Assembly (NCBI GenBank): GCA_002706085.1
Contig: PAJO01000009.1
Span: 143,228 to 175,317, forward strand
Origin: Alcanivoracaceae bacterium
GTDB taxonomy: Bacteria > Pseudomonadota > Gammaproteobacteria > Pseudomonadales > Alcanivoracaceae
Length of the DNA: 32,090 bases
Direction: 5' to 3'
Made by a program: the position numbers and the translations under genes. Under the pieces are notes generated by a model. The model was not told the DNA's origin. It did not search any database and worked only from the letters and a program-made list of their open reading frames with translations. Positions within the stretch are counted from its first letter, which is position 1. Each line of letters opens with the position of its first letter. Shown one piece after another: positions 10,639 to 31,111 of this stretch.

Positions 10639-10970
10639 CCATTCGTAACGCGAATGCTCAATTGCATCGAGCGGGTGAGGGTGGGTGAGAGCGCATATGG
10701 CCTTCGTTGCTGGGCGGCGCCCAAAGCTGGTGCATATTTGAGCGCACGACCATTTAATGCACAGAAATAGTGCTTCCCCAATTGTAAGACTTGAGTAACA
10801 TACCCATCTAATCGCACAAAACTGTCATAAATTTGCTAGATTATGGGCCCCCTCCAGGCCGGATCATCAAGATTTTGCGTGCCAAAGGGGTTGCTGTACG
10901 AAATGGCAAGGAAGCTGCACGCCGTCAGTGCGACATGCACGCAATGAGACACTCTGGTGACAGATGCTCT
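10639..10970. other. Intergenic stretch without a recognised gene
   Basis: No convincing coding frame was found on either strand. The only notable sequence is CTGTCATAAAT followed by TTGCTAG (10822-10839). Its first half equals a Pho-box half-site, but the second half diverges. The rest separates the SDR-like gene from the transporter promoter at 10971. Confidence 0.5.
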
Positions 10971-10999
10971 TTGCACAGCATATGCGCAAGCCGTAGAAT
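10971..10999 (+). promoter_or_regulatory. Sigma70-like promoter for the transporter-cysC-rfaH unit
   Basis: TTGCAC (-35, 10971-10976) is separated by exactly 17 bp from TAGAAT (-10, 10994-10999). The predicted start of transcription, near 11006, leaves a 45-nt leader before the transporter start. Confidence 0.6.
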
Positions 11000-11029: not shown

Positions 11030-11050
11030 CTTTTAAGGGTGAGGGAACCT

Positions 11051-12829
11051 ATGACACCAGATATGGTGTTCACCATAGCCGTGTTGATCATGGTGCTCGC
11101 GGCGTTGGCCACCAACAAGGTGCCTGCCGACGTGACCATGATGGCGGCCCTGACCCTGTTGTTGCTCTACGGCATCATTACCCCATCGGAAGCCCTGAAA
11201 GGCTTTGCCAACCCCGGTTTGATGACCATTGGTGCGCTCTATGTGGTTTCCGCCGCCTTGCGGGACACTGGCGCGATTTACTGGGTCGCGCACCGTCTGC
11301 TTGGCAGTCCGAAAACCGTGCTGGCCAGCCAGACCCGCATGATCGTGCCTACCTCATTGCTCAGTGCGTTCCTGAATAACACCACCGTGGTCGCCATGAT
11401 GATCCCGGCCGTGCAGGATTGGGCGCAGCGGCTGAAAATGTCACCCTCCAAATTCCTGCTGCCGCTCAGCTACGCGGCGATTCTGGGCGGTACCTGTACC
11501 CTGATCGGCACCAGCACCAATCTGGTAGTCGATGGCATGGTGCAAGCCCATGGCCTGCCGGGATTCGGGATTTTTGACCTGGCCTGGGTGGGCATTCCGC
11601 TGCTGATCATCGGCTCTTTATACCTGCTGTTTATCGGTCGCCACCTGTTGCCGGAACGCAAAGGTCTGATGGAGCAGCTGGAAAATGCCCGCGAATACAA
11701 CGTGGAAATGCGTATTTCCAACCCCAGCCCGCTGGCCGGTAAAACCATCCGTGAGGCAGGTCTGCGTAACCTGGCGCATGGCTACCTCACTGAAATTCAG
11801 CGCGGTGATCGCCTGCTGACTGCCGTAGGGGCTGATACCCCGCTGGAAGTCGAAGATGTGCTCGTGTTCATCGGCGCCCCGGAATGCGCCCGGGAACTGC
11901 AGCGCTTTAATGGTCTGGTGCCTGCCCATGCGGGTTCCCACAAACTGGAATTGCATAACCACCAACGCTGCCTGGTCGAGGTGATCCTCAGCCAGGAATT
12001 TCCCGCCATTGGCAAAACCGTCAAAGAATCCGCTTTTCGCACTCAGTACCAGGCTGCCATTCTGAGCATCAGCCGTAACGGTAAGCGTCTGTCGGGCAAA
12101 GTCGGGGACATCGAGCTGCGGGTGGGCGACACCCTGTTGCTGGAAACCGCCAAGTCGTTTGTTTCCCAGTATCAGTATCGTCGAGACTTCATGCTGGTGA
12201 GCCCGCTTCAGGACTCCTCTCCGCCAGACTTCCGCAAGGCGCCGCTGGCGGTCATGGTGCTGGTGGGCATGTTGGTCGCAGCGGCCTTTAGCTGGGTATC
12301 TACCCTTGAAGCCTCCATGGTGGCTGCAGGCATCCTGCTGGTCAGCCGCTGTGTTACCGCCAATCGCGCCCGGGTTACCGTCAGCGTCAACCTGTCGGTT
12401 CTGGTGGTCATTGGCGCATCTTTTGCAGTGGGCGAAGCCGTAGAGAAGAGCGGCACGGCTAACTGGATTGTCGAATCTGTGCTCTTGTCGGGCAATGTGG
12501 GCCCCTGGGTTGCCCTGCTTATGGTCTACTTGGTCACCGCGCTGTTCACCGAAATGATCACCAATAATGCCGCGGCAGTGTTGGTGTTCCCGGTCGCGCT
12601 GGAAGTGGCACGCTGGCTGGAAGCCAGCCCGTTGCCGTTTGTCGTCGCGGTCATGTTTGCCGCCTCGGCCAGTTTTATGACACCGCTGGGTTACCAGACC
12701 AATCTGATGGTCATGGGGCCGGGCGGGTACCGGTACGTGGATTACCTGAAGGTCGGGCTACCCATGAGCGTACTGGTTGCGCTGGTCACTGTGACGTTGG
12801 TCCCGGTGGTCTGGCCTTTCTTTCCCTAG
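11051..12829 (+). CDS. SLC13/DASS-type anion permease with internal RCK_C (TrkA_C) domains
   Basis: 592 aa inner-membrane transporter. N-terminal helices contain LNNTTVVAMMIPAV and GTSTNLVVDGM, and the C-terminal half has the matching ITNNAAAVLVFPVALE and PLGYQTNLMV motifs of SLC13/ArsB-like carriers. Between the halves (about residues 205-385) are two RCK_C-like soluble repeats, NPSPLAGKTIREAG and SQEFPAIGKTVKESAF, each followed by GDxLL/VLVF strands. Homologues of this architecture (Sac1/SLT-like) are linked to sulfate uptake. The next gene, 28 bp on, makes PAPS, which supports sulfate as substrate, but the specificity is inferred. The start at 11051 is favoured by GAGGG five bases upstream; a GTG at 11039 is a possible alternative. 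Confidence 0.88.
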   Translation: MTPDMVFTIAVLIMVLAALATNKVPADVTMMAALTLLLLYGIITPSEALKGFANPGLMTIGALYVVSAALRDTGAIYWVAHRLLGSPKTVLASQTRMIVPTSLLSAFLNNTTVVAMMIPAVQDWAQRLKMSPSKFLLPLSYAAILGGTCTLIGTSTNLVVDGMVQAHGLPGFGIFDLAWVGIPLLIIGSLYLLFIGRHLLPERKGLMEQLENAREYNVEMRISNPSPLAGKTIREAGLRNLAHGYLTEIQRGDRLLTAVGADTPLEVEDVLVFIGAPECARELQRFNGLVPAHAGSHKLELHNHQRCLVEVILSQEFPAIGKTVKESAFRTQYQAAILSISRNGKRLSGKVGDIELRVGDTLLLETAKSFVSQYQYRRDFMLVSPLQDSSPPDFRKAPLAVMVLVGMLVAAAFSWVSTLEASMVAAGILLVSRCVTANRARVTVSVNLSVLVVIGASFAVGEAVEKSGTANWIVESVLLSGNVGPWVALLMVYLVTALFTEMITNNAAAVLVFPVALEVARWLEASPLPFVVAVMFAASASFMTPLGYQTNLMVMGPGGYRYVDYLKVGLPMSVLVALVTVTLVPVVWPFFP

Positions 12830-12857: not shown

Positions 12858-13472
12858 ATGAGCACCCCCTACCAGCAGAAAAAGCACGACTCCAAGGCCC
12901 ACGTGGTATGGCACGAGACCAATATCAGCAAGGGCGACCGTGCCAGCCAGAAAGACCAGAAGCCAGTGTGCATCTGGCTGACAGGCCTGTCCGGTGCGGG
13001 TAAGTCCACCATTGCCAACGCACTGGAAGTGGCGTTGACCGAGAAGGGCAAGCACACCTACCTGCTGGACGGTGACAATGTTCGCCACGGCCTGAACAAA
13101 AACCTGGGCATGAGCGATGAAGACCGTGCCGAAAACATTCGTCGCGTATCGGAAGTGGCCAAACTGATGGTCGATGCGGGGTTGATCGTGGTGACGGCAT
13201 TTATCAGCCCGTTCCGTGCCGACCGTGACGCTGCCCGCGAACTGTTTGATGACGGTGAATTCGTGGAAGTATTTGTCCACGCACCGCTGGAAGAGTGCGA
13301 GAAGCGTGACCCGAAAGGCCTGTACAAAAAAGCACGTGCGGGCGAAATCAAGGAATTCACCGGTATCGACAGCCCCTACGAGGCGCCGGAAAAAGCGGAA
13401 ATCACCATCAACACCGCCGAAAACGATATCGAAGCTTGTGTAAAACAGATCATGGCCGAACTGGGCATTTAA
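12858..13472 (+). CDS. cysC: Adenylylsulfate (APS) kinase
   Basis: 204 aa stand-alone APS kinase, converting APS and ATP to PAPS in the cytosol. The P-loop GLSGAGKS is at residues 43-50. [26 protein letters not shown] is the APS-binding region (read in two blocks). FISPFRADR near 115-123 carries the conserved serine (Ser117), and [19 protein letters not shown] is the mobile lid. The length is normal for CysC. It is not fused to CysN, and no cysDN or PAPS reductase gene lies nearby. Its immediate neighbours are an SLC13 permease and an RfaH-like regulator of the polysaccharide operon. This suggests PAPS for sulfotransfer, possibly in addition to cysteine synthesis. Confidence 0.95.
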
Positions 13473-13515: not shown

Positions 13516-14043
13516 ATGAACGACGAACCGCCCGGGCCCTGTGCTCAGGGTGAAGCCAACTGGTACGCCGTGCAGTGCAAACCCGGCCAGGAGCAGCGGG
13601 CGCATGAAAACCTGATCAATCAAGGTTTTACATGTTTTTTCCCGCAGGTCCAGATCGAGCGCATACGCTCTGGTGCCAGAAAGCAGAAGCTTGAATCCCT
13701 ATTCCCCGGTTACCTGTTTATTGAACTGAAGGTAGGCGGTGAAGACTGGAGCGTGATCCGCTCCACCAGGGGGGTATTAAGGCTGGTCCGCTTCGGTAGC
13801 CAGCCGACACCCATTCCCCGTGCAGCCATGGGGGCCATCATGGCCCGTACAGGGGCTGCCGAAGGGGCTGAACAGATATTTAAGGCGGGCGATGCGGTGC
13901 GCATCACCCGAGGACCGTTTGCCGATCTCGACGCCGTATTCGATCGGTTCAACGGGGAAGAGCGGGCTATCGTGCTGATCTCCATGCTGGAGAAACAGCA
14001 CAAATTGGCCCTTGCCGTCGGGGATATTTCCCGCGGCGATTAA
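13516..14043 (+). CDS. rfaH: RfaH/NusG-like transcription antiterminator
   Basis: 175 aa NusG-family protein. The N-terminal NGN domain has NWYAVQCKPGQEQRAHENL, GFTCFFPQV and LFPGYLFIEL, the order seen in RfaH. The C-terminal KOW-type region has AGDAVRITRGPFADLDAVF and ends LALAVGDISRGD. RfaH-type proteins load onto RNA polymerase paused at ops and suppress Rho termination in long polysaccharide operons. Three in-frame ATGs exist (13489, 13510, 13516). The third is chosen because AGGGAAGG lies seven bases before it. It follows cysC by 43 bp. Its own ops element lies 78 bp beyond its stop, so it is probably the dedicated regulator of the following operon. It could be a paralogue of a separate housekeeping RfaH. 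Confidence 0.9.
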   Translation: MNDEPPGPCAQGEANWYAVQCKPGQEQRAHENLINQGFTCFFPQVQIERIRSGARKQKLESLFPGYLFIELKVGGEDWSVIRSTRGVLRLVRFGSQPTPIPRAAMGAIMARTGAAEGAEQIFKAGDAVRITRGPFADLDAVFDRFNGEERAIVLISMLEKQHKLALAVGDISRGD

Positions 14044-14121
14044 GCGATTAACCCCAGCGCCAGCGATGCTGAGTCGCCAGGCCTGTCGGGAGCCCAGAAT
14101 ACGCTGGATAATGGTCAGTGT

Positions 14122-14134
14122 GGCGGTAGCGTGC
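14122..14134 (+). promoter_or_regulatory. ops element (RfaH recruitment site)
   Basis: GGCGGTAGCGTGC matches the E. coli ops core completely and is followed by the pyrimidine-rich CTTCT. It lies in the 197-bp leader between the rfaH-like gene and the wza-like gene, on the transcribed strand orientation required. I saw no second copy in the window. Confidence 0.85.
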
Positions 14135-14240
14135 CTTCTAGTGCATGCGGCCAGACAACCGGGCGAGCGGTAAAAAGGACACCGACCAGGGCAAGCATTC
14201 CGTGCGATGTGGCGACTGGCAATTAACTATCAGGATGAAT

Positions 14241-15389
14241 ATGACCAACAACGTTAGCCCTTTTTCCAGAATTGCCGTGCTTGGCATCGTCCTGGCCATG
14301 CTTGGCGGCTGTGCGTTTGCCCCGGGCTCCCATATGTCTTCCCCGGGCTGGTTCAACGAAAACGATGACAACGATGACATCCCAGAGCTGGAAGACACCG
14401 TTGAAATCTACCCCATCAATACGGCGGTCCTTTCACAGGCTCAGCAGCAGTCTGCGCTGGCCTCTCCCTCCGCTGACCTCAACATCGATACCGGCAGTTA
14501 CGACTACATCGTCGGCATCGGTGATGTGTTGCAAATTACCGTCTGGGATCATCCCGAGTTGACCATTCCCGCGGGCTCTATGCGTAGCGCAGAAGAATCC
14601 GGCAACTGGGTTCATAATGACGGCAGCATCTTTTATCCCTACGTTGGCAAGATCCAGGTCGAAGGCCTGAAGGTCACTGAAATTCGTGATCTCATTGCAG
14701 ACCGGCTGGCCGAATATATTGAAAACCCCCAGGTAGACGTGATGGTAGCGGGCTTCCGCAGCCAGCGAGTCTACGTCACCGGGTCGGTCATGAAACCGGG
14801 CGCCTACCCCGTGACCAACGTGCCCATGCGTTTGCTGGACGCGGTGAATGCCGCCGGCGGTCTGACCGAAGTGGCCGACTGGAGCGATGTTACCCTGACC
14901 CGTGCAGGCAAGGACTACTCCCTGAGCCTGCGTGAGATTTACCAGCGGGGTAACGCCAGCCAGAACGTGCTGCTGCAGGCCGGTGATGTATTGAACGTGG
15001 CCCGTAACGATGACAACAAGGTGTTTGTCATGGGTGAAGTGAATGAAGCCATGCCAGTGCCCATGACCCGTAATGGACTCACCCTTGCCGAAGCGTTGTC
15101 CGCCTCAGGCGGTTATGACCAAAACACCGCCGATGCCTCCGGGATCTTCGTGATTCGCCGTGCACCACAAGGCAGCGAACACCTGGTCGATGTCTACCAG
15201 CTCAATGCCAAAGACGCCACCGCCCTGATTCTGGCCGACAGCTTCCCGCTGCAAAGCCGTGACATCGTGTATGTGACCGTAGCACCGATTGCCCGCTGGA
15301 ACCGCCTGATCAAGAACATCATGCCGACCTTCCAGACTATCTACTATGGCGCCCTTGGCGCAGACCGCATTCGGGATCTGGACGAATAA
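14241..15389 (+). CDS. wza: Wza-like outer-membrane polysaccharide export lipoprotein
   Basis: 382 aa, very near the size of E. coli Wza. A lipobox LGGC puts the acylated cysteine at residue 24 when the start is MTNNVSPFSR at 14241. That ATG is chosen because AGGA lies five bases upstream; an ATG two codons earlier is possible. The Poly_export domain starts with YDYIVGIGDVLQITVWDHPELT (in two blocks), and SLBB-type repeats follow (VYVTGSVMKPGAYPVTN, KVFVMGEVNEAMPVPM). Wza forms the octameric channel through the outer membrane, coupled to Wzc. It is the first gene after ops, and its stop overlaps the wzb start (TAATG), indicating translational coupling. A C-terminal amphipathic segment, WNRLIKNIMPTFQTIYYG, resembles the Wza barrel helix. 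Confidence 0.92.
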   Translation: MTNNVSPFSRIAVLGIVLAMLGGCAFAPGSHMSSPGWFNENDDNDDIPELEDTVEIYPINTAVLSQAQQQSALASPSADLNIDTGSYDYIVGIGDVLQITVWDHPELTIPAGSMRSAEESGNWVHNDGSIFYPYVGKIQVEGLKVTEIRDLIADRLAEYIENPQVDVMVAGFRSQRVYVTGSVMKPGAYPVTNVPMRLLDAVNAAGGLTEVADWSDVTLTRAGKDYSLSLREIYQRGNASQNVLLQAGDVLNVARNDDNKVFVMGEVNEAMPVPMTRNGLTLAEALSASGGYDQNTADASGIFVIRRAPQGSEHLVDVYQLNAKDATALILADSFPLQSRDIVYVTVAPIARWNRLIKNIMPTFQTIYYGALGADRIRDLDE

Positions 15390-15820
15390 TGTTTAACCGG
15401 ATTTTGGTGCTGTGCGATGGCAATATCTGCCGTAGCCCGACCGCCGAGGCATTGTTGAAAGCCCAGTGCCCCGATAAGCAGATCAGCTCTGCAGGGCTGG
15501 TGGGGCTTGAGGGGCAGGGCATGGAGCCTACCGCACAGGCCATGCTGGAAGCCGACGGTCAGCCTGCCCCCAGCCATGTGGCCCGCAAGCTCAACCGGGA
15601 AATGTGCGCAGAGGCCGATCTGATTCTGGTAATGGAAAAGCGCCAGCGTGACAAATTGACACAACGTTATCCTGAAAGTAGTGGCAAGGTATTCCTGTTG
15701 ACCCAATGGAATGGGCAGCAAGATATCCCGGATCCGTACAGGCGGAGCAGGGAAGTCTTCGAGCAGGTCTACCAACGCATCGCCGAGGCAACCACAGCCT
15801 GGGCCAGCAAGCTCCACTAA
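15389..15820 (+). CDS. wzb: Low-molecular-weight protein tyrosine phosphatase (Wzb-like)
   Basis: 143 aa cytosolic phosphatase. The P-loop CDGNICRSP starts with nucleophile Cys9 and phosphate-binding Arg15. The general acid is in DPYR (Asp115). These are the diagnostic LMW-PTP residues. In Wzy-dependent systems Wzb removes phosphate from the tyrosine tail of Wzc, and the phosphorylation cycle is needed for long-chain polymer. Its ATG overlaps the wza stop by one base. It is separated from wzc by 124 bp containing a REP-like half element, unusual spacing for this tightly linked gene trio. Confidence 0.94.
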   Translation: MFNRILVLCDGNICRSPTAEALLKAQCPDKQISSAGLVGLEGQGMEPTAQAMLEADGQPAPSHVARKLNREMCAEADLILVMEKRQRDKLTQRYPESSGKVFLLTQWNGQQDIPDPYRRSREVFEQVYQRIAEATTAWASKLH

Positions 15821-15944: not shown

Positions 15945-18155
15945 ATGACAGAAACACGCCAAGCCCAGCAACCGCATCACAGCACCAGCGATGATGAAAT
16001 CGACCTGCTCAAGCTGATTGCGGTATTGAAAGATCACCTGGGCCTGATCATTGCGATCACCGTGCTGGCCGGCAGCCTTGGGGTCGCCTATGCCTTGCTG
16101 GCCACGCCAATCTACAAGGCCGATGCGCTGCTGCAAGTGGAAGAAAAGCAAAGTGGCGTACCCGGCTTTGAAGAAATCAGTGAAATGTTCGCAGAAGAGT
16201 CGTCAGCCTCAGCAGAAATCGAATTGATTCGCTCTCGTATGGTGCTGGGGCAAGTTATCGACCGCTTTAATATGCAGGTCATGCTGGAACCGGACCGTCT
16301 TCCTCTGATTGGTAATCTCAGTGCGCCAGCACCGTTGGAGGACCCCCGTGAGCAGCCGCTGTTTGCCGGATTTCGGGATTCGGAAACCTTTGTCACAATC
16401 GAACACTTCACTGTTCCAGAGGAATGGCAAGGCGAGGCGTTTACCTTGCGATCAGAGAATGGTGATGCTCGTTTATATTATGAGGGGGCATTGGTTGCAG
16501 AAGGGCCTGTAAGCCAGCCAATCAGTGGTATGCAAGGGCGTTTACGTCTTGTGATTGGACAATGGCAATTGAAAGATGAAGAGCTCATCTTGGTACAGCT
16601 TAATCGACTAGCTGTGATTGAGAATATCCGAAAAAATCTGTTCGTGGCTGAACGTGGTAAAGATACAGGTATCATAACACTGAGTTATGAGGGGGAAGTG
16701 AGGGAGAGGAATCGAAAGATTCTGGATGCAATTGCTGAAGTCTATCTGAACCAAAATATACAGCGTAACGCAGCAGAAGCAGAAAATAGCTTGGAATTCC
16801 TGAACGAGCAGCTGCCGGAACTGAAAGATAAACTGATGAGCTCAGAGGAAACACTGAATCAGTATCGACTTAAAAATGAATCTGTCGACCTAACTCTGGA
16901 AACCCAGTCTACACTGGAGCGCCTTGTCACTGTTGACGCTCAACTCAATGAGCTGAAAATCAAGGAAAGTGAAATTTCCTCACGTTTTACGCAGTCTCAC
17001 CCGGCTTACCGCACCCTGATTCGCCAGCGTCAGTCCCTGCAACAGGAAAAAGCCCAGATTGAAGCGGACATCAAGCGCCTGCCAGAAACCCAGCAGGAAG
17101 TACTACGCATGATGCGTGATGTAGAGGTTAACCAGCAGATTTATGTGGGGCTACTCAATAAGGTGCAAGAGCTGCGAATCATGAAGGCCAGTACGGTGGG
17201 CAATGTCCGGATCATTGATGCAGCTATGGTGCCGGCAAAGCCTGTCAAGCCCCAAAAAGCCCTAGTCGTAATGGTCGCTATCATGATGGGGGGGATGCTC
17301 GGCGTGGGGTATGTCCTGCTGCGCTCAATCTTGCATCGTGGCTTGCATAGCCCGGAGCAGCTGGAAGAATTGGGTATTGCTGTTTACGGCAGCGTTCCGT
17401 TGTCAGAAGAGCAGCAAAAACAGGACCAGAAGATTTTCAAAGCCCAAAAACGAAAGTCTGAAAAGAAATATATTCCGCTGTTGGCCCGTACAAATCCGGC
17501 GGACTTGGCCGTGGAGGCCTTGCGCAGCCTGCGGACCCGTTTGCACTTTGCCATGATGGAAGCGGGCAACAATGTGCTGATGATCTCTGGCCCCAGTCCG
17601 GAAGTCGGCAAGTCCTTTATCAGCGCCAATATGGGCGAAGTGCTCGCCTCCATCGGCCAACGTGTGATCGTGATCGATGCAGATATGCGTAAAGGGCATT
17701 TGCACCGTTATTTCGAGAACGGGCAGTCCCCGGGCCTATCCGACTGGTTGTCAGGCCAGGTAGAGATGGATGCCGTGATTCATAATGGTGGGCAGGAGAA
17801 GCTGGATTTTATTCCCCGTGGCCAGATCCCGCCCAACCCATCCGAGCTACTGATGCACGAACGTTTTGGGCAACTGATCGAGAAACTTTCTGGTGAATAC
17901 GATCTGGTTTTGGTGGATACGCCGCCGATTCTTGCAGTTACCGATGCCGCGATCGTCGGCCAAAGCGTAGGCACCTCTCTGGTGGTCGCCCGCTTTGGGC
18001 GTAACTCTGCCAAAGAGGTAGATGTAGCCGTAGGGCGTTTCGAGCAGCATGGCATTGCCATCAAAGGGGTCATCCTCAATTGCATGGAAAGCCTGGCCAG
18101 CAATGAGTATGGCTACTACGCCTACGGCTATGGCCCAGACCACACTAACAGCTAA
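15945..18155 (+). CDS. wzc: Wzc-like polysaccharide co-polymerase and tyrosine autokinase
   Basis: 736 aa inner-membrane BY-kinase. The N-terminal Wzz domain has its first membrane segment near residues 31-52 (LGLIIAITVLAGSLGVAYAL). A long coiled-coil-rich periplasmic part follows, then PAKPVKPQKAL and the second membrane segment near 437-461. The cytosolic kinase has Walker A GPSPEVGKS (about 549), Walker A' VIVIDADMRKG (about 573) and Walker B LVLVDTPP (about 654). The C-terminal tail carries five tyrosines in eight residues (722, 724, 725, 727, 729), the autophosphorylation cluster. It controls chain length and export together with wza and wzb. The middle third (about 16.4-16.9 kb) reads AT-richer than the ends, which may indicate recombination within the gene. 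Confidence 0.95.
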   Translation: MTETRQAQQPHHSTSDDEIDLLKLIAVLKDHLGLIIAITVLAGSLGVAYALLATPIYKADALLQVEEKQSGVPGFEEISEMFAEESSASAEIELIRSRMVLGQVIDRFNMQVMLEPDRLPLIGNLSAPAPLEDPREQPLFAGFRDSETFVTIEHFTVPEEWQGEAFTLRSENGDARLYYEGALVAEGPVSQPISGMQGRLRLVIGQWQLKDEELILVQLNRLAVIENIRKNLFVAERGKDTGIITLSYEGEVRERNRKILDAIAEVYLNQNIQRNAAEAENSLEFLNEQLPELKDKLMSSEETLNQYRLKNESVDLTLETQSTLERLVTVDAQLNELKIKESEISSRFTQSHPAYRTLIRQRQSLQQEKAQIEADIKRLPETQQEVLRMMRDVEVNQQIYVGLLNKVQELRIMKASTVGNVRIIDAAMVPAKPVKPQKALVVMVAIMMGGMLGVGYVLLRSILHRGLHSPEQLEELGIAVYGSVPLSEEQQKQDQKIFKAQKRKSEKKYIPLLARTNPADLAVEALRSLRTRLHFAMMEAGNNVLMISGPSPEVGKSFISANMGEVLASIGQRVIVIDADMRKGHLHRYFENGQSPGLSDWLSGQVEMDAVIHNGGQEKLDFIPRGQIPPNPSELLMHERFGQLIEKLSGEYDLVLVDTPPILAVTDAAIVGQSVGTSLVVARFGRNSAKEVDVAVGRFEQHGIAIKGVILNCMESLASNEYGYYAYGYGPDHTNS

Positions 18156-18243: not shown

Positions 18244-20283
18244 TTGCCGCAACCCCCGAACCGAAAAATGACCCAGCCCAGATTGATCCGGCATCTGCCG
18301 GGCACGGTTTACATAGCCTGTCTGGTGGCGGGTAGCAGCGCTCATGCGGCCGGACCGGATGTTGCCTTTCCGGGCTACAGCGGTTTTCTGAATGTGCCAT
18401 CTTCCAGGGTGTTGGAGCATGGCACCATGGATGTTCAGTTTTCGAATCAGGGTTTTGTTGGTGGTAATTATGAGTACTACGACAATGTTTCTGGGGTATT
18501 GGGCATCTTTAGAAATGTAGAAGTTAGTGGCAGGATTATTTGGGAAAATACTCATACCAATTTATTTGTTGATGAGCATGAGCTTAGAGACTTATCCGCT
18601 AACGCAAAAATTCAAATCCCCTTTATTCCTGAAGATTGGTTTACCGCGTCGGTCGGCATTCAGGACATTGGCGGTGAAGTGAATTTCTTTGACTCCACAT
18701 ATGCTGCAGTTGGCCGCCAATTCGGGCCATTTGAGATAACGGCGGGTTACGGTGAAACCGATATTGAAGAGCGTTACCTGAGCGGGGGTTTTGGTGCAGT
18801 GGAGTACAGGCCCTTTGACTGGGGTAGTGTGATTGCTGAATACGATAGCCGAAACGTACGCTTTGGACTTGGTGTCACTACGCCTGCTAAATGGTTGCCC
18901 GGTGGGGTGCAACTAAAAGGAAAAGTGCTGCTCAGTGATCAAGGCGATGACGACAACGATCGCCATTTCGTTTCGGTTGGGATTTCGATTCCTTATGGCA
19001 ATACAGCAAGAAAGCGTCGTTTACTTGACGAAGCGATGCCAGTTTCAGATTCCGACGCTGTGTCAGCGAAGGTGGCGATAACACAACCCTCCAATGATTT
19101 GGCGCGGCAGTCGGTGGAGCTCGAAGTCAACGGCGTTGAAGGGCGCGAGCTATCAGTGGAACAAGAAGCAACACTGGTCGGCAAGCGTTTGGTGCAGGCT
19201 GGGTACGAGAGAGTGAAAGTCGGAAGCAAGGGCGATACGTTATGGGTGCGTTGGGAAAATAATCTCTATAACAGGGATGAGCGAGACTCTATTCATGACG
19301 TTGCCCAGACAGTTCGTCGTTATGCTGAGGTTCACCGAATGGCAAGGCTTCAGCTGTTGAATCAGGGAATTCCCGTCGTCGAGAGAACGCTTAACCTCGA
19401 TGCCGCTCCAGGGCAGGATTTGGCCGGCAGTCGTTATCCCCAAGCGGATTTCTGGCAATCCGAAGAACTGCCGGAGTGGTCCTATTCCGGGTCCTTCGGG
19501 CCAGCCTGGAAACCGCGACTGGAAATCGCCCCAACGATTACGACCGGTGTTGCTACCGATTACGGCGTCTGGGATTATTCGTTGGGCGTAGCCTCAGAGT
19601 TGTCCCTGTCGCTGTGGAAAGGAGCACTTGTTTCTGCCACCTACAATGTCGAAATTGATCAATCCGATGATTTTGAGGAAGGCGGGGCCTACTACAACAA
19701 CCGCCAGCGGACGGATCTGGTAGAAGCAGAGGCTCAGCAAACCTTCAAGCTGCATTCCCTTCTTTACACAAGTTTTCATGCAGGCCGTTATGCCTTCGAT
19801 TATGATGGCGTCCTGAATGAAACGGTATTGTTTGCCCCCAATGGCCGCCATAGTCTTGGGTTCCTTGGCGGGCAATTCAAGCATACGGAAACAGAAAATG
19901 TGACAGAGCAAGGACTGGCTCGTTATAGCTATTACAACCCAGACATGGACGTGCAGTTCGACATATATGGCGGACAATTCTTTGCCGAAGATACAGGTGT
20001 GCGGGTGGATACTCGCTTCTGGTTCGGTGACTATGCGTTCACGCTTACCTACAAAAACACCGATGCTGAGTTTGTCGGTCTTGGCTGGGTTATTCCCCTT
20101 ACTCCTGTTAAAGACAAGCAGTGGCGTTACCTGCAGATTAAGGGTAACCCGGACTGGAACTATGGGGTTCAGACACGCATTAGTGAGCGTAATTTCATAT
20201 CTTTCGGTGGGGCTGCAATTTTGCGCTCTGCAAATCCTCTGCAGAACCTGTACATGAACAGGGGGAGGTTGCCGAATCGCTAG
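18244..20283 (+). CDS. YjbH-type outer-membrane exopolysaccharide protein
   Basis: 679 aa, YjbH/WbfB family. A TTG start at 18244 is chosen because AGGGAG ends seven bases before it and the first ATG (18268) has no ribosome site. The signal peptide runs to about residue 36 (CLVAGSSAHA). The mature start GPDVAFPGYSGFLNVPSSRVLEHGTM (two blocks) is the family hallmark, and the rest is rich in alternating beta strands typical of a barrel. Family members accompany exopolysaccharide loci such as yjbEFGH and vps/wbf. They probably act in the outer membrane in secretion or modification of the polymer. The reading frame is intact and the length usual. Confidence 0.85.
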   Translation: MPQPPNRKMTQPRLIRHLPGTVYIACLVAGSSAHAAGPDVAFPGYSGFLNVPSSRVLEHGTMDVQFSNQGFVGGNYEYYDNVSGVLGIFRNVEVSGRIIWENTHTNLFVDEHELRDLSANAKIQIPFIPEDWFTASVGIQDIGGEVNFFDSTYAAVGRQFGPFEITAGYGETDIEERYLSGGFGAVEYRPFDWGSVIAEYDSRNVRFGLGVTTPAKWLPGGVQLKGKVLLSDQGDDDNDRHFVSVGISIPYGNTARKRRLLDEAMPVSDSDAVSAKVAITQPSNDLARQSVELEVNGVEGRELSVEQEATLVGKRLVQAGYERVKVGSKGDTLWVRWENNLYNRDERDSIHDVAQTVRRYAEVHRMARLQLLNQGIPVVERTLNLDAAPGQDLAGSRYPQADFWQSEELPEWSYSGSFGPAWKPRLEIAPTITTGVATDYGVWDYSLGVASELSLSLWKGALVSATYNVEIDQSDDFEEGGAYYNNRQRTDLVEAEAQQTFKLHSLLYTSFHAGRYAFDYDGVLNETVLFAPNGRHSLGFLGGQFKHTETENVTEQGLARYSYYNPDMDVQFDIYGGQFFAEDTGVRVDTRFWFGDYAFTLTYKNTDAEFVGLGWVIPLTPVKDKQWRYLQIKGNPDWNYGVQTRISERNFISFGGAAILRSANPLQNLYMNRGRLPNR

Positions 20284-20373: not shown

Positions 20374-20447
20374 GCTAGTTAAAGCGTACAGGGGTAATCA
20401 AGGATTGGGTGAAAGCCCAAAAGTTAACGGAAAACAGGAGTTTATCT

Positions 20448-21437
20448 ATGCGTTTTTCTCAATCAAAAGGGCGTTTCAGCCGTAACCTGCTTGCTGCAGC
20501 GATTCTCACTCCCACCCTGGTGCTGACAGGTTGCTTCTTCGATGATGATGATGACGACAAGCCGGGGTCTGGCGGTTCGACTTCTTCATCCGCAGGTTTG
20601 GCCTATGACGGTTACCTGATCGGCGCCACCGTCTGTATCGACCTGAACTTGAACAAGACCTGCGACGCCAGCGAGCCCAGCAGCACTACCGATGCAGACG
20701 GTAACTTCAACATCACTGGTCTGACGGCTACCCAGGCCAAGTACCCGCTGGTGCTGGAGTCTACTGCCGATACCGAGGATAGCGATAACCCAGGTGTCAA
20801 AGTTGGGACGGGCCTGAAATTCCTGGCTCCGGCAGGCAGCAAAACCGTCAGCGCGTACTCCACCATTATTCAGGCCAAAATCCAGGCGAAATTGGCTGGG
20901 GGCGATACCCGTACTTTGGCGCAGCTGAAAGCTGAAGCTGCCACCGAGCTGTCGACGACCCTGGGTCTGGGTGGTGTGGATCTGACTGACTACGACCCGA
21001 TTGCGACCAAAACGGGCAGCGGGGCAGAAGCCGACAAGATCACCGCGGCCAAGATTCACCTGATGAACCAGATTCTCTCTAACGAGCTGCTCAACAGGCT
21101 GCCGACCATTATCACTCAGGCGCAAGGTGCCGGTGTAACCCCGGGTGCGGCGGCGTCCTTACTGGCTGAAAAGCTGGAAAGCGTTATCGCAACCATCAAG
21201 TCTGAGGTGGATACCGCCACCTCGGGGCTGGCTGATGCAGCGGCTATCTCCGCTTTGGATGAGAGCAGTGTCGCGATCTCTGTGCTGCCAATCTCCGTAA
21301 CCAATGCTGAGCTACTAGCACAGCAGACGGCTGAAGATGCAGCCAACGAAGCTATCGAAGACGAGTTGGGCGATGCTGGCGACGGTGGCTCTACCGGCGG
21401 TACTGGTGCAACTGGTGGCTCTGGTGGTGTGATCTAA
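20448..21437 (+). CDS. Unknown acidic outer-membrane lipoprotein
   Basis: 329 aa with no family I can name confidently. The start at 20448 (MRFSQSKGR) has ACAGGAG upstream. A lipobox LTGC gives acylated Cys29. Phe at the next position argues against inner-membrane retention. Directly after it come six consecutive Asp (32-37) and a Gly/Ser linker. The first domain, AYDGYLIGATVCIDLNLNKTC followed by DASEPSSTTDADGNFNITGL, resembles surface proteins with carboxypeptidase-regulatory-like or SD-repeat-like beta folds that bind calcium. The remainder is Ala/Thr-rich and probably helical. It ends in a Gly/Thr tail (GDGGSTGGTGATGGSGG). Being inside the export operon suggests a role in surface polymer attachment, but that is inference. 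Confidence 0.82.
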   Translation: MRFSQSKGRFSRNLLAAAILTPTLVLTGCFFDDDDDDKPGSGGSTSSSAGLAYDGYLIGATVCIDLNLNKTCDASEPSSTTDADGNFNITGLTATQAKYPLVLESTADTEDSDNPGVKVGTGLKFLAPAGSKTVSAYSTIIQAKIQAKLAGGDTRTLAQLKAEAATELSTTLGLGGVDLTDYDPIATKTGSGAEADKITAAKIHLMNQILSNELLNRLPTIITQAQGAGVTPGAAASLLAEKLESVIATIKSEVDTATSGLADAAAISALDESSVAISVLPISVTNAELLAQQTAEDAANEAIEDELGDAGDGGSTGGTGATGGSGGVI

Positions 21438-21474: not shown

Positions 21475-21477
21475 TGT

Positions 21478-21500
21478 CGACTTGCCCCCAAGGCAAGTCG
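21478..21500 (+). terminator. Hairpin 2 after the lipoprotein gene
   Basis: CGACTTGCC and GGCAAGTCG form a perfect 9-bp stem with loop CCCAA, followed by GTTATTCTTT. The T-rich but interrupted tail makes it a moderate terminator candidate. Confidence 0.75.
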
Positions 21501-21517
21501 GTTATTCTTTCTGTATC

Positions 21518-21546
21518 ACAGGGCCCTTGAGGGCCCTGTTTCTTCC
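21518..21546 (+). terminator. Hairpin 3 after the lipoprotein gene, likely intrinsic terminator
   Basis: ACAGGGCCC and GGGCCCTGT form a 9-bp GC-rich stem around TTGA, followed by TTCTTCC. This is the best intrinsic terminator of the three. It divides the export genes from the assembly genes unless it is read through. Confidence 0.8.
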
Positions 21547-21655: not shown

Positions 21656-22312
21656 ATGGAAACAAATAACGCGACGATGCCTCTACTGCCTCTCGATAGT
21701 CCCCTAAAACGCAGCATGAAACGATTATTCGATTTTTTTGGCGCGTTGATATTACTGACAATGTTAATGCCGTTTCTGATCGTCGTCGCGTGCCTGGTTC
21801 GCGCTTCGGGCAAGCAGATTATTTTTGGCCATGAGCGTATCGGCGTGGAGGGGAGACCCTTCAAATGCTTGAAGTTTAGAACCATGGTAGTGAATGCTCA
21901 GGAAGTGCTTCATGAGCTTTTGGAAAATGACCCCATCGCACGTGCAGAATGGGAAAAAGATTTTAAACTCAAGAATGACCCGCGAGTAACGGCTATTGGC
22001 GCTTTTCTGCGTAAGACGTCACTGGATGAACTGCCACAGCTATTAAATGTGTTTAAAGGCGAGATGAGTCTGGTTGGGCCTCGACCAGTTATCGATGAAG
22101 AAATTAAGCGATATGGTGCGAGTGCGGACTACTATTTTGCCGTGCGCCCAGGTATGACAGGCCTTTGGCAGGTCAGTGGGCGTAATGATGTTGATTACGA
22201 TGAGCGTATCAGCATGGATGTCGAATATGTTAAAAGCTGGAGAATTAAGCTAGATATAGAAATTCTTATGAAGACTGTTCTCGTTGTGATCGGAAAAGAG
22301 GGCGCGTACTAG
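21656..22312 (+). CDS. Initiating sugar-phosphate transferase (WbaP/WcaJ catalytic-domain type)
   Basis: 218 aa bacterial sugar transferase, which moves a sugar-1-phosphate from a nucleotide sugar to undecaprenyl phosphate and starts the repeat unit on the inner membrane. It has one hydrophobic re-entrant segment ([19 protein letters not shown]). The catalytic core contains [26 protein letters not shown] and [13 protein letters not shown], all family hallmarks. It is short, containing the catalytic part only, without the extra N-terminal helices of full WbaP or WcaJ; similar short forms (PglC/PssY-like) are functional. The start has GGAGCGAAAGG upstream. It ends one base before the sulfotransferase ATG. 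The specific sugar (Gal, Glc or GlcNAc phosphate) cannot be told. Confidence 0.92.
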
Positions 22313-22313
22313 A

Positions 22314-23015
22314 ATGAAAATTTATTATGTTCTTAAGGTTTTTTTAGAGAAGATTATAGGAAGGAAGTTGTATATAAAGGCTTCCGTTTTGGTTAATGGT
22401 TATACGGTTTACTGGAAGGCGTTTGATAATCATAAGTGTATTTTTATTCATGTCCCGAAAACTGCAGGAACCTCAGTCGGTGAAGCTATTTTTGGGAATG
22501 GAAGGACAGGGCATTTCGGCTGGGAAATTTATAGGGCTTGCAGCAAAAAAAAATTTGACGACTACTTTAAATTCGCTTTTGTTAGAAATCCTTATGATCG
22601 GGTTGTCTCCTCTTTTTACTATTTGTCCCAGGGTGGAAAGAGCGAAGCTGATAAAAAATTTTTTGAGGAATATTTAAGCGGCGCAAAAGATTTTGAAGAT
22701 TTCGTTATGAATTATCTTGGCTCTCCGGTTGTGATGAGTTGGGGGCACTTCAGGCCCCAAGCGGATTATCTTGTGGATTATTCATCCGGAAAAGTGATGG
22801 TTGACTGGCTGGGGAGGCTTGAGAGTATAAATGAGGATTTTGCGTTTCTTCGTGAGAAGTTTAATTGCCTAGATATTGAGGTGAAAAATAAAAGCCAAAG
22901 AAACGATTTCCGAACGTATTATTCTGAGAATCCAGCAATAGCAGAAAAGATCCACGAAATTTACGCTAAGGATTTTGAGTACTTTGGCTATGAAAAAAAC
23001 TCTTTTGGTTGTTGA
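22314..23015 (+). CDS. Sulfotransferase family protein (Sulfotransfer_2-like)
   Basis: 233 aa. IFIHVPKTAGTSVGEAIFG carries the 5'-phosphosulfate loop PKTAGTS (residues 48-54). KFAFVRNPYDRVVSSFYYL (about 86-104) is the 3'-phosphate-binding motif of PAPS-dependent carbohydrate sulfotransferases. A likely C-terminal element, FNCLDIEVKNKSQRNDFRTYY, matches the end of the family. There is no signal peptide or clear membrane anchor, so it would act in the cytosol on lipid-linked sugars. It sits one base after the initiating transferase and is AT-rich. With cysC and an SLC13 carrier 9 kb upstream, it suggests a sulfated glycan. The acceptor is unknown. Confidence 0.87.
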   Translation: MKIYYVLKVFLEKIIGRKLYIKASVLVNGYTVYWKAFDNHKCIFIHVPKTAGTSVGEAIFGNGRTGHFGWEIYRACSKKKFDDYFKFAFVRNPYDRVVSSFYYLSQGGKSEADKKFFEEYLSGAKDFEDFVMNYLGSPVVMSWGHFRPQADYLVDYSSGKVMVDWLGRLESINEDFAFLREKFNCLDIEVKNKSQRNDFRTYYSENPAIAEKIHEIYAKDFEYFGYEKNSFGC

Positions 23016-23204: not shown

Positions 23205-24374
23205 ATGATTGTTTTGGTTGTGGATTCTGTTGAGAGATATGCCTTTTTTAAAAGGCTGTCTGAGTCTGATCCTGCTGCTTTCATTATTTTAACAACGGAG
23301 CCTTTGGCGTATTTAAATGCTCGCATAAGTGGCTTGAGTTGTGTACTTGTAAGCCGAAAAGTTAACCGCAATGCGAGTATAAGGCCACTAGCAGAAAAGG
23401 CTATCGAGTGTCTTAATGGAAGGAGATCTCCGTCACAGTGTGAAAATGATATATGCGCTGTTCATGAAGGGTTGATGAGGATAAAGGATCAGGTTAGAAA
23501 AGTCGTGGTTTGGAATGGACAGCACTCAGTGGGTATTGGGGTCAAATATTTTTGTGAAAGTCAAAATGTGTCCGCTCAATTTATAGAGCTTTCTAACTTG
23601 CCGAATAAATTATTTTCTGATCCTCAAGGGGTGAATGCGGCATCCTCGCTCTACAATAACCCGTCATTGCTCGATGTTTTCCCCCGTGTTGGGGATGATG
23701 AGCATGCTGAATGGGTCACAGAATACCGTAAGAGTAAAATAGGTGTCTTACCGCAGTCTGTTCATTCGACAAAGAAAAAAATGAACAGTTTTTTGAATGC
23801 AGCGTTAAAAATGCTTTACCCTGCAGCAAATAAGGGAGGGGTGGCAGCACTGTATGGGAAATCCTTGAAAGGGGGGGGGGTGAGGGTGGATTTTGAGATA
23901 GTCTTCTTTGAGGATGATTATGTATTTTTCCCTCTTCAGGTGTCTGCCGACACGCAGTTAAAGCTCCATTCTGATATCGATAACATACAGGCGTTATTCT
24001 CTGCGGCTGAAGAAGCAGAGAAAATAGGTGGAAAGTTGGTTGTGAAGATTCACCCAGCAGAAACTGACCCAGGCCAGATAAGGGAGATCGTGAAATTGAA
24101 AGCTAGGCTTGGTTTTATTATTACGGATCAACCGACGGTCGATTTAATTGAAAACGCCAAGTTGGTAATAACAATCAATTCCACTGTGGGGCTGGAAGCT
24201 ATGGTACTCGGCAAGCCCGTGGTCGTGCTGGGGCGGGCTTTGTACCAAAATTTTAACGCTGAAAGGCTGAAAAAATATATTCATCACTACCTTGTCGATG
24301 GCGTAGATTATTTTGGTGTTGAACCTATAAGCAAGGAGAGGGCATTAAGGGTGATAGGCGATGAAATTTTCTGA
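23205..24374 (+). CDS. Capsule_synth-domain protein (KpsS/KpsC-like), with internal G10 tract
   Basis: 389 aa. The second half matches Capsule_synth-type proteins: VFFPLQVSADTQLKLHSD, GGKLVVKIHPAETD, TDQPTVDLIENAKLVITINS then TVGLEAMVLGKPVVVLG. This family includes KpsS and KpsC (beta-Kdo transferases) and related capsule glycosyltransferases. The N-terminal part is less recognisable. At 23871-23880 ten consecutive Gs encode part of LKGGGV (about residues 222-226). Loss of one G puts TGA immediately after the tract, and gain of one G gives TGA five codons later. The gene overlaps the next by 14 bp. The sugar transferred may be Kdo, given the KpsF homologue downstream; that is inference. Confidence 0.78.
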   Translation: MIVLVVDSVERYAFFKRLSESDPAAFIILTTEPLAYLNARISGLSCVLVSRKVNRNASIRPLAEKAIECLNGRRSPSQCENDICAVHEGLMRIKDQVRKVVVWNGQHSVGIGVKYFCESQNVSAQFIELSNLPNKLFSDPQGVNAASSLYNNPSLLDVFPRVGDDEHAEWVTEYRKSKIGVLPQSVHSTKKKMNSFLNAALKMLYPAANKGGVAALYGKSLKGGGVRVDFEIVFFEDDYVFFPLQVSADTQLKLHSDIDNIQALFSAAEEAEKIGGKLVVKIHPAETDPGQIREIVKLKARLGFIITDQPTVDLIENAKLVITINSTVGLEAMVLGKPVVVLGRALYQNFNAERLKKYIHHYLVDGVDYFGVEPISKERALRVIGDEIF

Positions 24375-24867
24375 ATTTTGGTGCTGTCTTTGTGAAGACC
24401 TAAAAGCAAATTATATGCTTAAGAGCAGGGTGGTTGTTCTGTTGTTCAGGATTGCTAACTACTTTGCGCTTAAGGGACGTGGCGGACAGCTATTGGGCTT
24501 GCCGTTCATTGCCATATATGTCGTGATAGTTGAGTGGTTTCTAGGGATTGAAGTTCACGTTAAAACCCGAATAGGGAAGGGGTTTGTCATATATCATGGG
24601 GTTGGATTGGTAATAAATGGCCACTCGGTAATTGGTGAAAACGTTCAAGTAAGACAAGGTTGTTGCATAGGTAATAAAATGGATCGCGCTGGAAGTGTAT
24701 CTGGTGCTCCAATAATTGGTAATAATGTAGAGCTTGGAGTCAACGCTGTAGTTTTGGGTGAAATAAATGTGGCTGACGGGGTTGTTATCGGAGCTGGAGC
24801 GGTGGTCATCAAAAATTGTGATCCCGATGGTGTGTATGTGGGTGTCCCGGCAGTAAGGATAAAGTAG
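24361..24867 (+). CDS. Hexapeptide-repeat acetyltransferase (WcaB/CysE-like)
   Basis: 168 aa left-handed beta-helix acyltransferase. A short N-terminal helical part (FWCCLCEDLKANYMLKSRVVVLLFRIANY) is followed by LPFIAIYVVIVEWFLGIEV. The hexapeptide coils then run from TRIGKGFVIYHGVGLVING through IGENVQVRQGCCIGN, PIIGNNVELGVNAVVLG, VADGVVIGAGAVV and GVYVGVPA. The His in YHGVGLVI corresponds to the catalytic His of the serine O-acetyltransferase group. In polysaccharide loci such proteins O-acetylate sugar residues, as WcaB does in colanic acid. A housekeeping CysE is unlikely because of the length and context. The start overlaps the upstream gene by 14 bp, and the stop overlaps the next start by one base. 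Confidence 0.88.
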   Translation: MKFSEFWCCLCEDLKANYMLKSRVVVLLFRIANYFALKGRGGQLLGLPFIAIYVVIVEWFLGIEVHVKTRIGKGFVIYHGVGLVINGHSVIGENVQVRQGCCIGNKMDRAGSVSGAPIIGNNVELGVNAVVLGEINVADGVVIGAGAVVIKNCDPDGVYVGVPAVRIK

Positions 24868-25769
24868 TGAGAGATATTTTTATAATACACCCGGGTAAAG
24901 CAAACTACCCAGAGGTTTCAGCGTACAAAGATTTTTTCTCTGGTAGCTGTACAGTATTGGACGGAACGCTCTCTGATTTTATGTCGCTAGAGGGCCGCCA
25001 AGATTGGGTGGCTTGGTGTATAATGGGATTCTATCCCGCAAAGATTGATGCATCGGTTGTAATACATGACTATCGCTCCCTCTCTGTAGGCGCATTTGTA
25101 GCAGCCAAGGACTACATTAAAAAAAAATTTCAGCCAAAGCCAGATCTGAGAATTTTTCAAAACGAAGCCATGTCGTCGGTGATGTCTTTTTCGGATGATG
25201 TTGAAACGCTTTACTTGCCGATGGGTGTTCCAAGCTTTATTTACAATATTGAAGCGACCAATAACCCGCTTCACAAGCAGAAATTTTGCTATATTGGCGA
25301 GATGTCACGTGAACGAAATTTCGACAAGGTTTTAGATGCATTTGTAAATAACGATCAAGGCGGTTCGATAGTCTTGGTAGGTAGTCCCCAGAAAGAAATA
25401 TATGAAAAATATCGGCATTTTCCTCAGCTAATATTCACGGGAAGAGTCAGCCAGAAAGAAGCTCTCTCGATAGTTAAGGCATGTGCATTTTCTGTTTGCT
25501 ATTTTCCTTGGCATAGACCGCATAAATTTCAGGCACCAACAAAACTGTTGGAGTATATGGCGCTTGGGGTTTCGGTCATTTGCAATGATGCGCCTTCAAA
25601 TTTAAGGGAATTGGAAAAGTTTTCTTATCCAGCGACTGTGAGTGGTGATTATGTTTTCGGTAATAATCTTTCTTTTGATTTGACCCCCCCTTCTGCTGTA
25701 AAGGGGATTTCGTGGCGCGATGTGATTGGTGGTTCTGGGATCTATGATGCGCTATCCGTTAGGGGCTGA
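24867..25769 (+). CDS. GT4-like glycosyltransferase
   Basis: 300 aa, starting with GTG at 24867 inside the stop of the acetyltransferase (TAGTG). The C-terminal half has the GT-B nucleotide-sugar site: KFCYIGEMSRERNFDKVL, IVLVGSPQKE, LIFTGRVSQKEAL and HKFQAPTKLLEYMALGVSVICND. The last includes the E-x7-E-type donor-binding region with Glu of KLLEYMALG. The N-terminal half is short. No membrane segment is present, so it is cytosolic or peripheral. Donor and acceptor are unknown. Confidence 0.82.
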   Translation: MRDIFIIHPGKANYPEVSAYKDFFSGSCTVLDGTLSDFMSLEGRQDWVAWCIMGFYPAKIDASVVIHDYRSLSVGAFVAAKDYIKKKFQPKPDLRIFQNEAMSSVMSFSDDVETLYLPMGVPSFIYNIEATNNPLHKQKFCYIGEMSRERNFDKVLDAFVNNDQGGSIVLVGSPQKEIYEKYRHFPQLIFTGRVSQKEALSIVKACAFSVCYFPWHRPHKFQAPTKLLEYMALGVSVICNDAPSNLRELEKFSYPATVSGDYVFGNNLSFDLTPPSAVKGISWRDVIGGSGIYDALSVRG

Positions 25770-26952: not shown

Positions 26953-27288
26953 TCGATGAATGCGATGTGTAACGTCGATCTGTATGCTAATAACAAAGAA
27001 TTTTTATGGGGAAGGAAACCAAATTTTATGGTTCTGCCTCGGTCTTTAAAGGATTGATGCGGCGTAAACTGTGTTGGCAAAACGAAACTTTTTGTTTCGG
27101 TAGGGTATTTGGGAGCAATAGTTAATAAAAGAACTGGATGGCTATTGGGGTGGTAACGAGTGGCGATTATTTGCCAATGTTGGGAGGGTTAAATCTCGCT
27201 GATTTTTGGGATCACAAGGGCTGTTGCGGTTTGGGGATGGTTTTATCAGGTGGCCCTAAAATATTTAATGTTCTTATAAGGTTGTTAA
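26953..27288. other. 336-bp gap inside the biosynthesis cassette, no recognised gene
   Basis: The stretch interrupts otherwise overlapping or near-contiguous genes. It holds a small CGAAAC-TTTTT-GTTTCG hairpin (about 27083-27099). It also contains two short open frames (27006-27125, 39 aa, and 27138-27311, 57 aa) that I cannot assign to any family and that have poor ribosome sites. It may be the remnant of a lost gene or a cassette junction. Confidence 0.5.
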
Positions 27289-28362: not shown

Positions 28363-28377
28363 CTAATCGGTTTTATT

Positions 28378-29313: not shown

Positions 29314-29366
29314 CCTAATCTGGTTTTGTCGCTTTTGCATTTTTATACTGGGGGATAGATTTAAAA

Positions 29367-30695: not shown

Positions 30696-30745
30696 TGCCT
30701 GATTCTGTTTCGGTTCTATAATATCTTGTAAATAGGTGTTTATCT

Positions 30746-31108: not shown

Positions 31109-31111
31109 GTA

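Follow-up and report, generated by a model that had tools for sequence, protein, structure and literature searches.

Can an antiterminator of the RfaH family and the DNA signal that recruits it form a single unit at the head of the operon they serve? The question is raised by a 32,090-nucleotide (nt) stretch from a marine Alcanivoracaceae bacterium (contig PAJO01000009.1 of assembly GCA_002706085.1, positions 143,228 to 175,317 of the forward strand; hereafter the window), in which an rfaH gene is followed at once by a hairpin, an exact ops element and a long polysaccharide operon. From sequence comparison we consider it very probable that the locus is a self-contained recruitment module, that is, a genuine RfaH encoded directly 5' of the canonical hairpin-ops that leads the operon served.

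An rfaH gene directly upstream of an ops element

The anatomy of the locus is seen directly and comprises three features:

13516-14043, + strand: rfaH, a NusG-family antiterminator of 175 amino acids (TIGR01955 score above cut-off; about 36% identity to E. coli RfaH)
14102-14120, + strand: 5-bp hairpin CGCTG/CAGTG with a 9-nt loop, 1 nt 5' of ops, JUMPstart-like and contained in the minimum-free-energy fold
14122-14134, + strand: ops core GGCGGTAGCGTGC, exact, the sole exact match in the window

The rfaH frame runs from an ATG at 13516, directly preceded by the ribosome-binding sequence AGGGAAGG, to a TAA at 14041-14043. Its product passes the NCBI equivalog model for RfaH (TIGR01955, 159.9 bits against a cut-off of 144.5) and falls below the cut-offs of the models for NusG (TIGR00922, 80.4 against 135.7 bits), UpxY (NF033644, 82 against 100 bits) and LoaP (NF033641, 66.4 against 125 bits); by these scores we regard the gene as a genuine rfaH. 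The ops core, which we take to be identical to that of E. coli, follows the rfaH stop after 78 nt, and its single 13-mer match in the window compares with about 0.002 expected from base composition. The preliminary description of this DNA had placed an rfaH-like gene 78 bp before an exact ops core, and both the family score and the position of the core bear this out; the span it gave for the arrangement, 13516-14240, starts correctly and at its end runs into the first codons of wza.

No site resembling a promoter or a terminator was scored in the interval from rfaH to wza, and co-transcription of rfaH with the ops region is therefore our default assumption. Over 10.5-15.0 kb, promoter-like sites (2, against 2.2 in shuffles) and terminator-like sites (2, against 4.6) did not exceed chance, and the closest promoter-like site 5' of rfaH lies at 10970-10999. 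A stem-loop in JUMPstart elements has been noted before (Weinberg et al. 2010, PMC2864571); with the Rfam JUMPstart model RF01707 the window site scores 17.0 bits, below the gathering threshold of 35, and a full Rfam scan at gathering thresholds gave no match in the window or in 12 relative loci. A short open frame, MVSVAVACLLVHAARQPGER at 14111-14173, begins in the hairpin loop and spans ops; it is possibly a leader peptide or a remnant of decayed first codons.

The assembly (3.78 Mb, 99.96% complete) encodes this one RfaH and one paralogue, the housekeeping NusG. The exact ops 12-mer GGCGGTAGCGTG occurs twice in it, the second time (C45:6258) within an open frame of 468 amino acids, and an ops 14-mer with one mismatch allowed gave seven sites, the exact one included, against six for the reversed control, which leaves no excess besides the exact one. 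The preliminary description had proposed a search for a second rfaH and for other ops cores, and held that many sites served by the same protein would speak against it; what the genome holds is a single RfaH and, outside the 468-residue frame, a single exact site.

No RfaH was found in the remaining 16 genomes of the genus; a single NusG-like match (24-28% identity) was obtained in 13 of them, and nothing in the other three at an E-value of 1e-5. Fifteen of the 16 have wza, and in all 15 the 4.2-5.4 kb stretch upstream of it contains neither an rfaH match nor an exact ops; two one-mismatch ops sites in these stretches are both on the opposite strand. Protein and site are therefore present or absent together, a joint absence that is directly seen. 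In all 15 a wzi match precedes wza, and Pfam confirmed Wzi in two of them. Among the loci compared, the RfaH of L019 differs by about 0.03 changes per site from that of L049 (Alcanivorax sp. 24), and that of L021 is identical to that of L050 (Alloalcanivorax profundimaris); such near-identity assigns the family as Alcanivoracaceae.

Spread, orientation and sequence context of the rfaH-ops pair

The recurrence of the pair, and its orientation, are equally plain in other genomes. Relatives were found with an alignment query, a single-protein query of genome contigs having given none, and the 80 named gammaproteobacterial rfaH loci that we compared are the best 80 of 543 from this search, a non-random sample. 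In 52 of the 80, the exact 12-mer lies within about 5 kb of rfaH (53 sites), compared with no site for the reversed pattern and a mean of 0.44 for 200 shuffled patterns, a mean that includes one draw reaching 53, presumably the core itself. The 40 sites that share the strand of rfaH all lie downstream, at distances of 56-2687 bp (median 295), the 13 on the opposite strand all lie upstream, and the remaining two quadrants are empty; transcription therefore runs away from rfaH. Where at least 3 kb of downstream sequence was available, half of the loci (36/72) had a same-strand ops within 3 kb. One Marinobacter locus (L118), omitted from alignments and residue counts, entered the orientation count with hand-set coordinates.

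Two even draws extend this picture. In the order sample (293 genomes, 90 with RfaH and 203 without), the 14-mer GGCGGTAGCGTGYC was present in 54 of 90 RfaH-positive and 14 of 203 RfaH-negative genomes, and its reversed control in 23 of 90 and 16 of 203, corresponding to odds ratios of 20 and 4, respectively. The background is higher in RfaH-positive genomes, and composition thus explains part of the contrast, not most of it. The 14-mer lies on the same strand within 6 kb downstream of rfaH in 21 of the 90, and in 14 of these 21 it is the sole one listed; the other seven hold further 14-mers elsewhere. From the class sample (an even draw of 229 genomes), 50 further RfaH-positive genomes contain the 12-mer 74 times, compared with 50 occurrences of the reversed pattern, with a same-strand site 102-3223 bp downstream of the RfaH match in 17 of the 50 and a same-strand site upstream in two. 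The arrangement is widespread outside enterics, with many exceptions, and is not the exceptional one that the preliminary description implied.

The hairpin recurs with the site. Among 54 ops sites, full 5-bp pairing was found with a 13-nt loop in 16 and with a 9-nt loop, the type carried by the window, in 20; any other loop length between 4 and 19 nt gave full pairing in 0-3 sites, and the hairpin often stands 1 nt before ops. In the 13-nt-loop hairpin, three of the five pairs show changes on both sides in some sequence (15 sites from 14 loci), and the covariation score is 0.45 against 0.21 in shuffles, none of 500 reaching it, and at most 0.19 when the stem is slid. These 15 sites were drawn from the 16 fully paired ones, such that full pairing among them holds by construction, and two of five measures were unexceptional (double-change pairs, 61/500; further pair types, 263/500).

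In 16 Marinobacter loci (L055, L061, L065, L068, L069, L071, L073, L074, L078, L079, L081, L082, L086, L104, L107 and L118), the 9-nt-loop hairpin and ops fall within the opening codons of a long reading frame, typically with the start codon 32 nt before ops; apart from the window, four of the 20 rows with this leader type lie outside such a frame. Three of the frames were identified, as wzi (Pfam PF14052) in L061 and L068 and as yjbH in L055. The peptide over the ops codons typically reads M-x-x-K-H-W-x-L-V-G-G-A-V-A-C-L, by eye a putative signal peptide. Because two unrelated proteins share these codons, it appears to be the DNA that is kept, which suggests that conservation acts on DNA rather than on the peptide. 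A single stretch of Marinobacter DNA is thus recruitment signal and coding sequence in one.

The leader in the window may derive from such a frame. Over the 33 nt preceding ops it agrees with the best-matching of the 20 rows at 21 positions, other ops rows reaching at most 10, and this level is attained by 7 of 129,889 33-mers of the same genome, the window site included; the codon frame is that of Marinobacter and the start codon is gone. It is the fixed-position comparison alone that sets the window leader apart as Marinobacter-like, since local alignment with ops masked gave a score of 18 against the Marinobacter leaders, equal to the shuffled median of 18. Given that relatives in the genus have wzi before wza, and that the order in L107 is rfaH, ops within a long frame, wza, the simplest account would be a loss of wzi that left its initial codons, with the ops in them, in place as a leader.

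Two further observations concern ops sites placed otherwise. An exact ops stands just 5' of rfaH on the same strand in G092:C58 and G449:C4 (L195), about 60-90 bp before the RfaH match, and in G439:C2, about 530 bp before it, a placement that would allow positive autoregulation. In one family (f8; genomes G042, G193, G214, G234, G253 and G309, loci L166-L177), several to many exact ops sites occur with no RfaH match at 1e-25. One of these genomes, G042, has 22 exact 12-mers against none for the reversed control; it was the only one searched for an RfaH-like protein, and it encodes one of 210 amino acids (L172:3455-4087) with an insert and an odd C-terminus, scoring 96.2 bits against the cut-off of 144.5 and lying amid housekeeping genes. 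Some sites in this family precede genes of anti-phage type, namely DptF (L171) and an HsdR-like gene (L176, below cut-off and truncated where the locus ends), as well as a KpsM-like gene (L167, below cut-off), perhaps pointing to an RfaH acting in trans on a regulon that includes defence.

The operon, the protein and the explanations weighed

The genes around the pair are as follows:

11039-12829, + strand: DASS/SLC13-type anion transporter, perhaps for sulfate uptake, first gene of the putative transcript (TIGR00785, 107 bits, under the cut-off of 198.6)
12858-13472, + strand: cysC, adenylyl-sulfate kinase (TIGR00455, 282.9 bits, cut-off 138.7)
14235-15389, + strand: wza, polysaccharide export lipoprotein (Pfam Poly_export, SLBB_2, Wza_C)
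15389-15820, + strand: wzb, low-molecular-weight tyrosine phosphatase (Pfam LMWPc)
15945-18155, + strand: wzc, tyrosine kinase/chain-length regulator (Pfam Wzz, GNVR, WZC_N; NCBIfam Wzc 818.7 bits, under the cut-off of 1068)
18244-20283, + strand: yjbH-like exopolysaccharide gene (Pfam YjbH, 83.4 bits, cut-off 24)
20409-21437, + strand: open reading frame of 342 amino acids, the last before the hairpins (no Pfam or NCBIfam match)
21476-21502 (11 bp) and 21518-21539 (9 bp), + strand: two strong hairpins between the export and biosynthesis blocks, with imperfect T tails
21656-22312, + strand: initiating sugar transferase (Pfam Bac_transf, 222 bits)
22314-23015, + strand: sulfotransferase (Pfam Sulfotransfer_2, 69.5 bits, cut-off 22)
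23205-31990, + strand: capsule-synthesis, hexapeptide transferase, glycosyl transferase, EpsG-like, SIS-CBS, flippase-like and nucleotidyl transferase genes (Pfam), AT-rich to about 28 kb

Every assigned gene from wza (14235) onwards is on the + strand, over about 17.8 kb up to the point where window and contig both end, in agreement with the operon of more than 15 kb that had been described; the hairpins reported at 21.45-21.55 kb were likewise recovered, with an AT-rich stretch beyond them. The G+C content is 0.57-0.62 upstream and drops to 0.41-0.43 between 22 and 28 kb, and low values such as these are a signature of acquired DNA of the kind that RfaH serves in E. coli. Upstream, 28 nt separate the transporter from cysC and 43 nt separate cysC from rfaH. 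Together with the sulfotransferase, the transporter and cysC suggest that the polysaccharide may be sulfated. An anion transporter and cysC are also found near rfaH and ops in L049 (Alcanivorax sp. 24), L081 (Marinobacter santoriniensis) and L094 (Tamilnaduibacter), a recurring neighbourhood hinting at RfaH-driven sulfated polysaccharides. The 342-residue frame has a relative of 52% identity downstream of yjbH in Marinobacter (L055).

In E. coli numbering, the window RfaH keeps K10, R16, Q24, E48, F51, T72, R73, F130, R138 and L142, with H20 replaced by N and I93 by M. Four of the five residues contacting ops DNA (K10, R16, H20, T72 and R73) are thus present, as are three of the four of the autoinhibitory interface (E48, I93, F130 and R138), of which R138 is by eye also found in NusG. 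Among 39 proteins with a local ops, a count that includes the window protein, E48 is conserved in 38, T72, R73 and R16 in 39 each, and position 10 is K or R in 38. An AlphaFold2 prediction with 80 homologues gave a beta-barrel KOW domain in the window RfaH (predicted local distance difference test 83-91 for the block; predicted template modelling score 0.59). A beta KOW was set aside as proof of a constitutively active protein, as a Kangiella control with nearly the same alignment, which groups with E. coli RfaH, was also predicted as beta; crude helix and strand propensities did not separate the cases either.

The phylogenies of RfaH bear on how the local arrangement evolved. In a 97-row tree containing many near-copies and weak deep branches, the local-ops label requires 22 changes, fewer than in all 500 shuffles (mean 31.4). 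A further alignment (A4) omitted L128 and included L031. A 43-row tree, for which 31 of the 79 fetched-locus rows were picked by hand and 7 of 9 class-sample stretches were included (the nine representing 8 of the 17 local-ops genomes and one with ops upstream), gave 12 changes against 12.5 in shuffles, no better than chance, and its deep branches are again weak. In this tree E. coli RfaH groups with a Kangiella pair (98/93), one member of which carries an exact ops locally; in the other, a site with one mismatch lies at a similar distance. The trans location would accordingly look derived in the E. coli/Kangiella clade, as far as hand-picked rows with weak deep branches can indicate.

In the mechanism we propose, RNA polymerase arriving from cysC-rfaH, or from a local promoter, would pause at ops, where RfaH made at the same locus would read the exposed non-template ops hairpin through its NGN domain and bind the polymerase. 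Once bound, it would displace NusG, hence keep Rho off, and couple the ribosome, and it would stay on the polymerase through the hairpins at 21.5 kb and into the AT-rich, probably sulfated-polysaccharide genes. RfaH being diffusible, we speak of a locally encoded protein rather than a strictly cis-acting one. The obligatory cis action from the upstream transcript that the preliminary description implied finds no support: 13 of the 53 sites lie upstream of rfaH on the other strand and, if such sites are used, RfaH does not have to be made from the transcript on which it acts. In that case integrity of the module, whose gene and site travel together, and perhaps local concentration account for local encoding better than obligatory cis capture does.

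Several results weigh against a recruitment module. The exact 12-mer is absent from 28 of the 80 named loci, some of them with short flanks, and the 14-mer is missing in 36 of the 90 RfaH-positive genomes of the order sample. The 28 rows with no exact ops nearby are as well conserved as the others (E48 in 27, R73 in 27), and the contact residues therefore mark RfaH rather than its local class. Among the residues important for ops pausing (Belogurov 2010, PMC2871177), H20, whose replacement in H20A leaves E. coli RfaH strongly defective (PMC2871177), is N in the window protein, as it is in 17 of the 39 local-ops proteins. The leader RNA is no more stable than its shuffles (z -0.41; relatives L049 -0.55, L107 +0.85 and L051 -1.74), the T tails of the two hairpins are imperfect, and terminator-like sites in the region as a whole number 6 against 5.7 in shuffles, no excess.

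The most serious alternative, to which we would give somewhat less than an even chance, is that rfaH and ops are neighbours only through shared polysaccharide clusters, the protein being an ordinary trans factor and the adjacency a matter of co-inheritance. This is compatible with most of the module reading. The 13 of 53 sites on the opposite strand, the further 14-mers carried by 7 of the 21 genomes in the order sample that have a local ops and the diffusible nature of E. coli RfaH, which is established knowledge, all favour it, whereas the median distance of 295 bp, the strict orientation and the 14 of 21 genomes in which the local 14-mer is the sole one listed argue for a closer tie between gene and site. 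We consider it unlikely that the locus reflects an ancestral cis mode, in which RfaH, beta-folded and constitutively active, would capture the polymerase making its own mRNA and ops would be no more than a helpful pause. The predicted beta-barrel KOW, and a preprint tying local encoding to a beta KOW (PMC13015549), would be in keeping with such capture; the fold test does not discriminate, however, as the Kangiella control shows the same fold, residues of the autoinhibitory interface (E48, F130, R138 and L142, with the reservation on R138 given above) are present, and opposite-strand sites are incompatible with it. Least probable of all, in our estimate, is that the ops match is a functionless fossil of the first codons of wzi. 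The leader's likeness to Marinobacter wzi/yjbH codons (21/33 nt, same frame) and the wzi genes before wza in the genus would fit a fossil, yet the ops core is intact and was kept while the start codon went, and the stem differs from that of Marinobacter and still pairs.

With the recruitment module as the preferred reading of the window, a wider generalization can be put forward only tentatively, and we think it rather more doubtful than not: that outside enterics a transferable rfaH and hairpin-ops module always firing away from rfaH is a usual form, of which the trans RfaH of E. coli would be a derived exception, and that some local RfaHs read ops unlocked, as an intermediate between cis NusG paralogues and trans RfaH.

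Comparison with known systems

The closest counterpart is E. coli RfaH with ops (JUMPstart), which the window resembles in its family score, ops core, four of five ops-contact residues, hairpin before ops and long polysaccharide operon. It differs in that the rfaH gene of E. coli is flanked by tatD and ubiD, far from its targets, compared with a gap of 78 nt in the window, and in that the window site reaches only 17 of 35 bits by the Rfam model. In its position at the head of the target operon, the window antiterminator is like UpxY, LoaP, TaA and ActX: LoaP of Bacillus and the plasmid-borne ActX are encoded at or in the operon they act on, and the same holds for UpxY of Bacteroides, TaA of Myxococcus and plasmid paralogues, which are encoded at the head of or inside the target operon (PMC7593976). 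Unlike UpxY and LoaP, the window protein scores under both model cut-offs and is accompanied by a canonical ops.

RfaH recruitment is reported to be known in detail only for E. coli (PMC7593976). In RfaH clusters CL2-CL8 (Wang et al. 2020, PMC7593976), RfaH-like genes adjoin cell-envelope and polysaccharide genes, as in the window; the examined text of that paper describes neither ops in these neighbourhoods nor its orientation or distance, and its Fig. 6C marks ops sites. The rfaH of Azotobacter similarly adjoins a large surface-polysaccharide (lipopolysaccharide) island (PMC4465626), the examined text of that paper mentioning no ops. Our literature search, which covered mainly the text of open papers without figures or supplements, found no description of rfaH-ops adjacency outside enterics, of its strict orientation or of ops within first codons. 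Local RfaH beside polysaccharide genes is already known (PMC7593976, PMC4465626); a canonical ops directly downstream outside enterics, the strict orientation and ops in first codons would, as far as this search goes, be new. Outside enterics, the pair may also be of practical use for flagging operons that are likely to be driven by RfaH.

Cis recruitment has been proposed as ancestral (PMC7819879), and published models associate ops recruitment and autoinhibition with action in trans, and local encoding with an ops-independent, constitutively folded protein. The monomorphic cis RfaH of a 2026 preprint (PMC13015549) is, like the protein in the window, encoded beside a long operon; in contrast to what the preprint's text describes, the local class considered here keeps most ops-binding residues and has an exact ops. 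Judged by these residues and sites, the class does not fit the published split between trans with ops and cis without ops. Its existence suggests that where RfaH is encoded can be separated from how it is recruited, and the class would provide natural material for testing how RfaH evolved.
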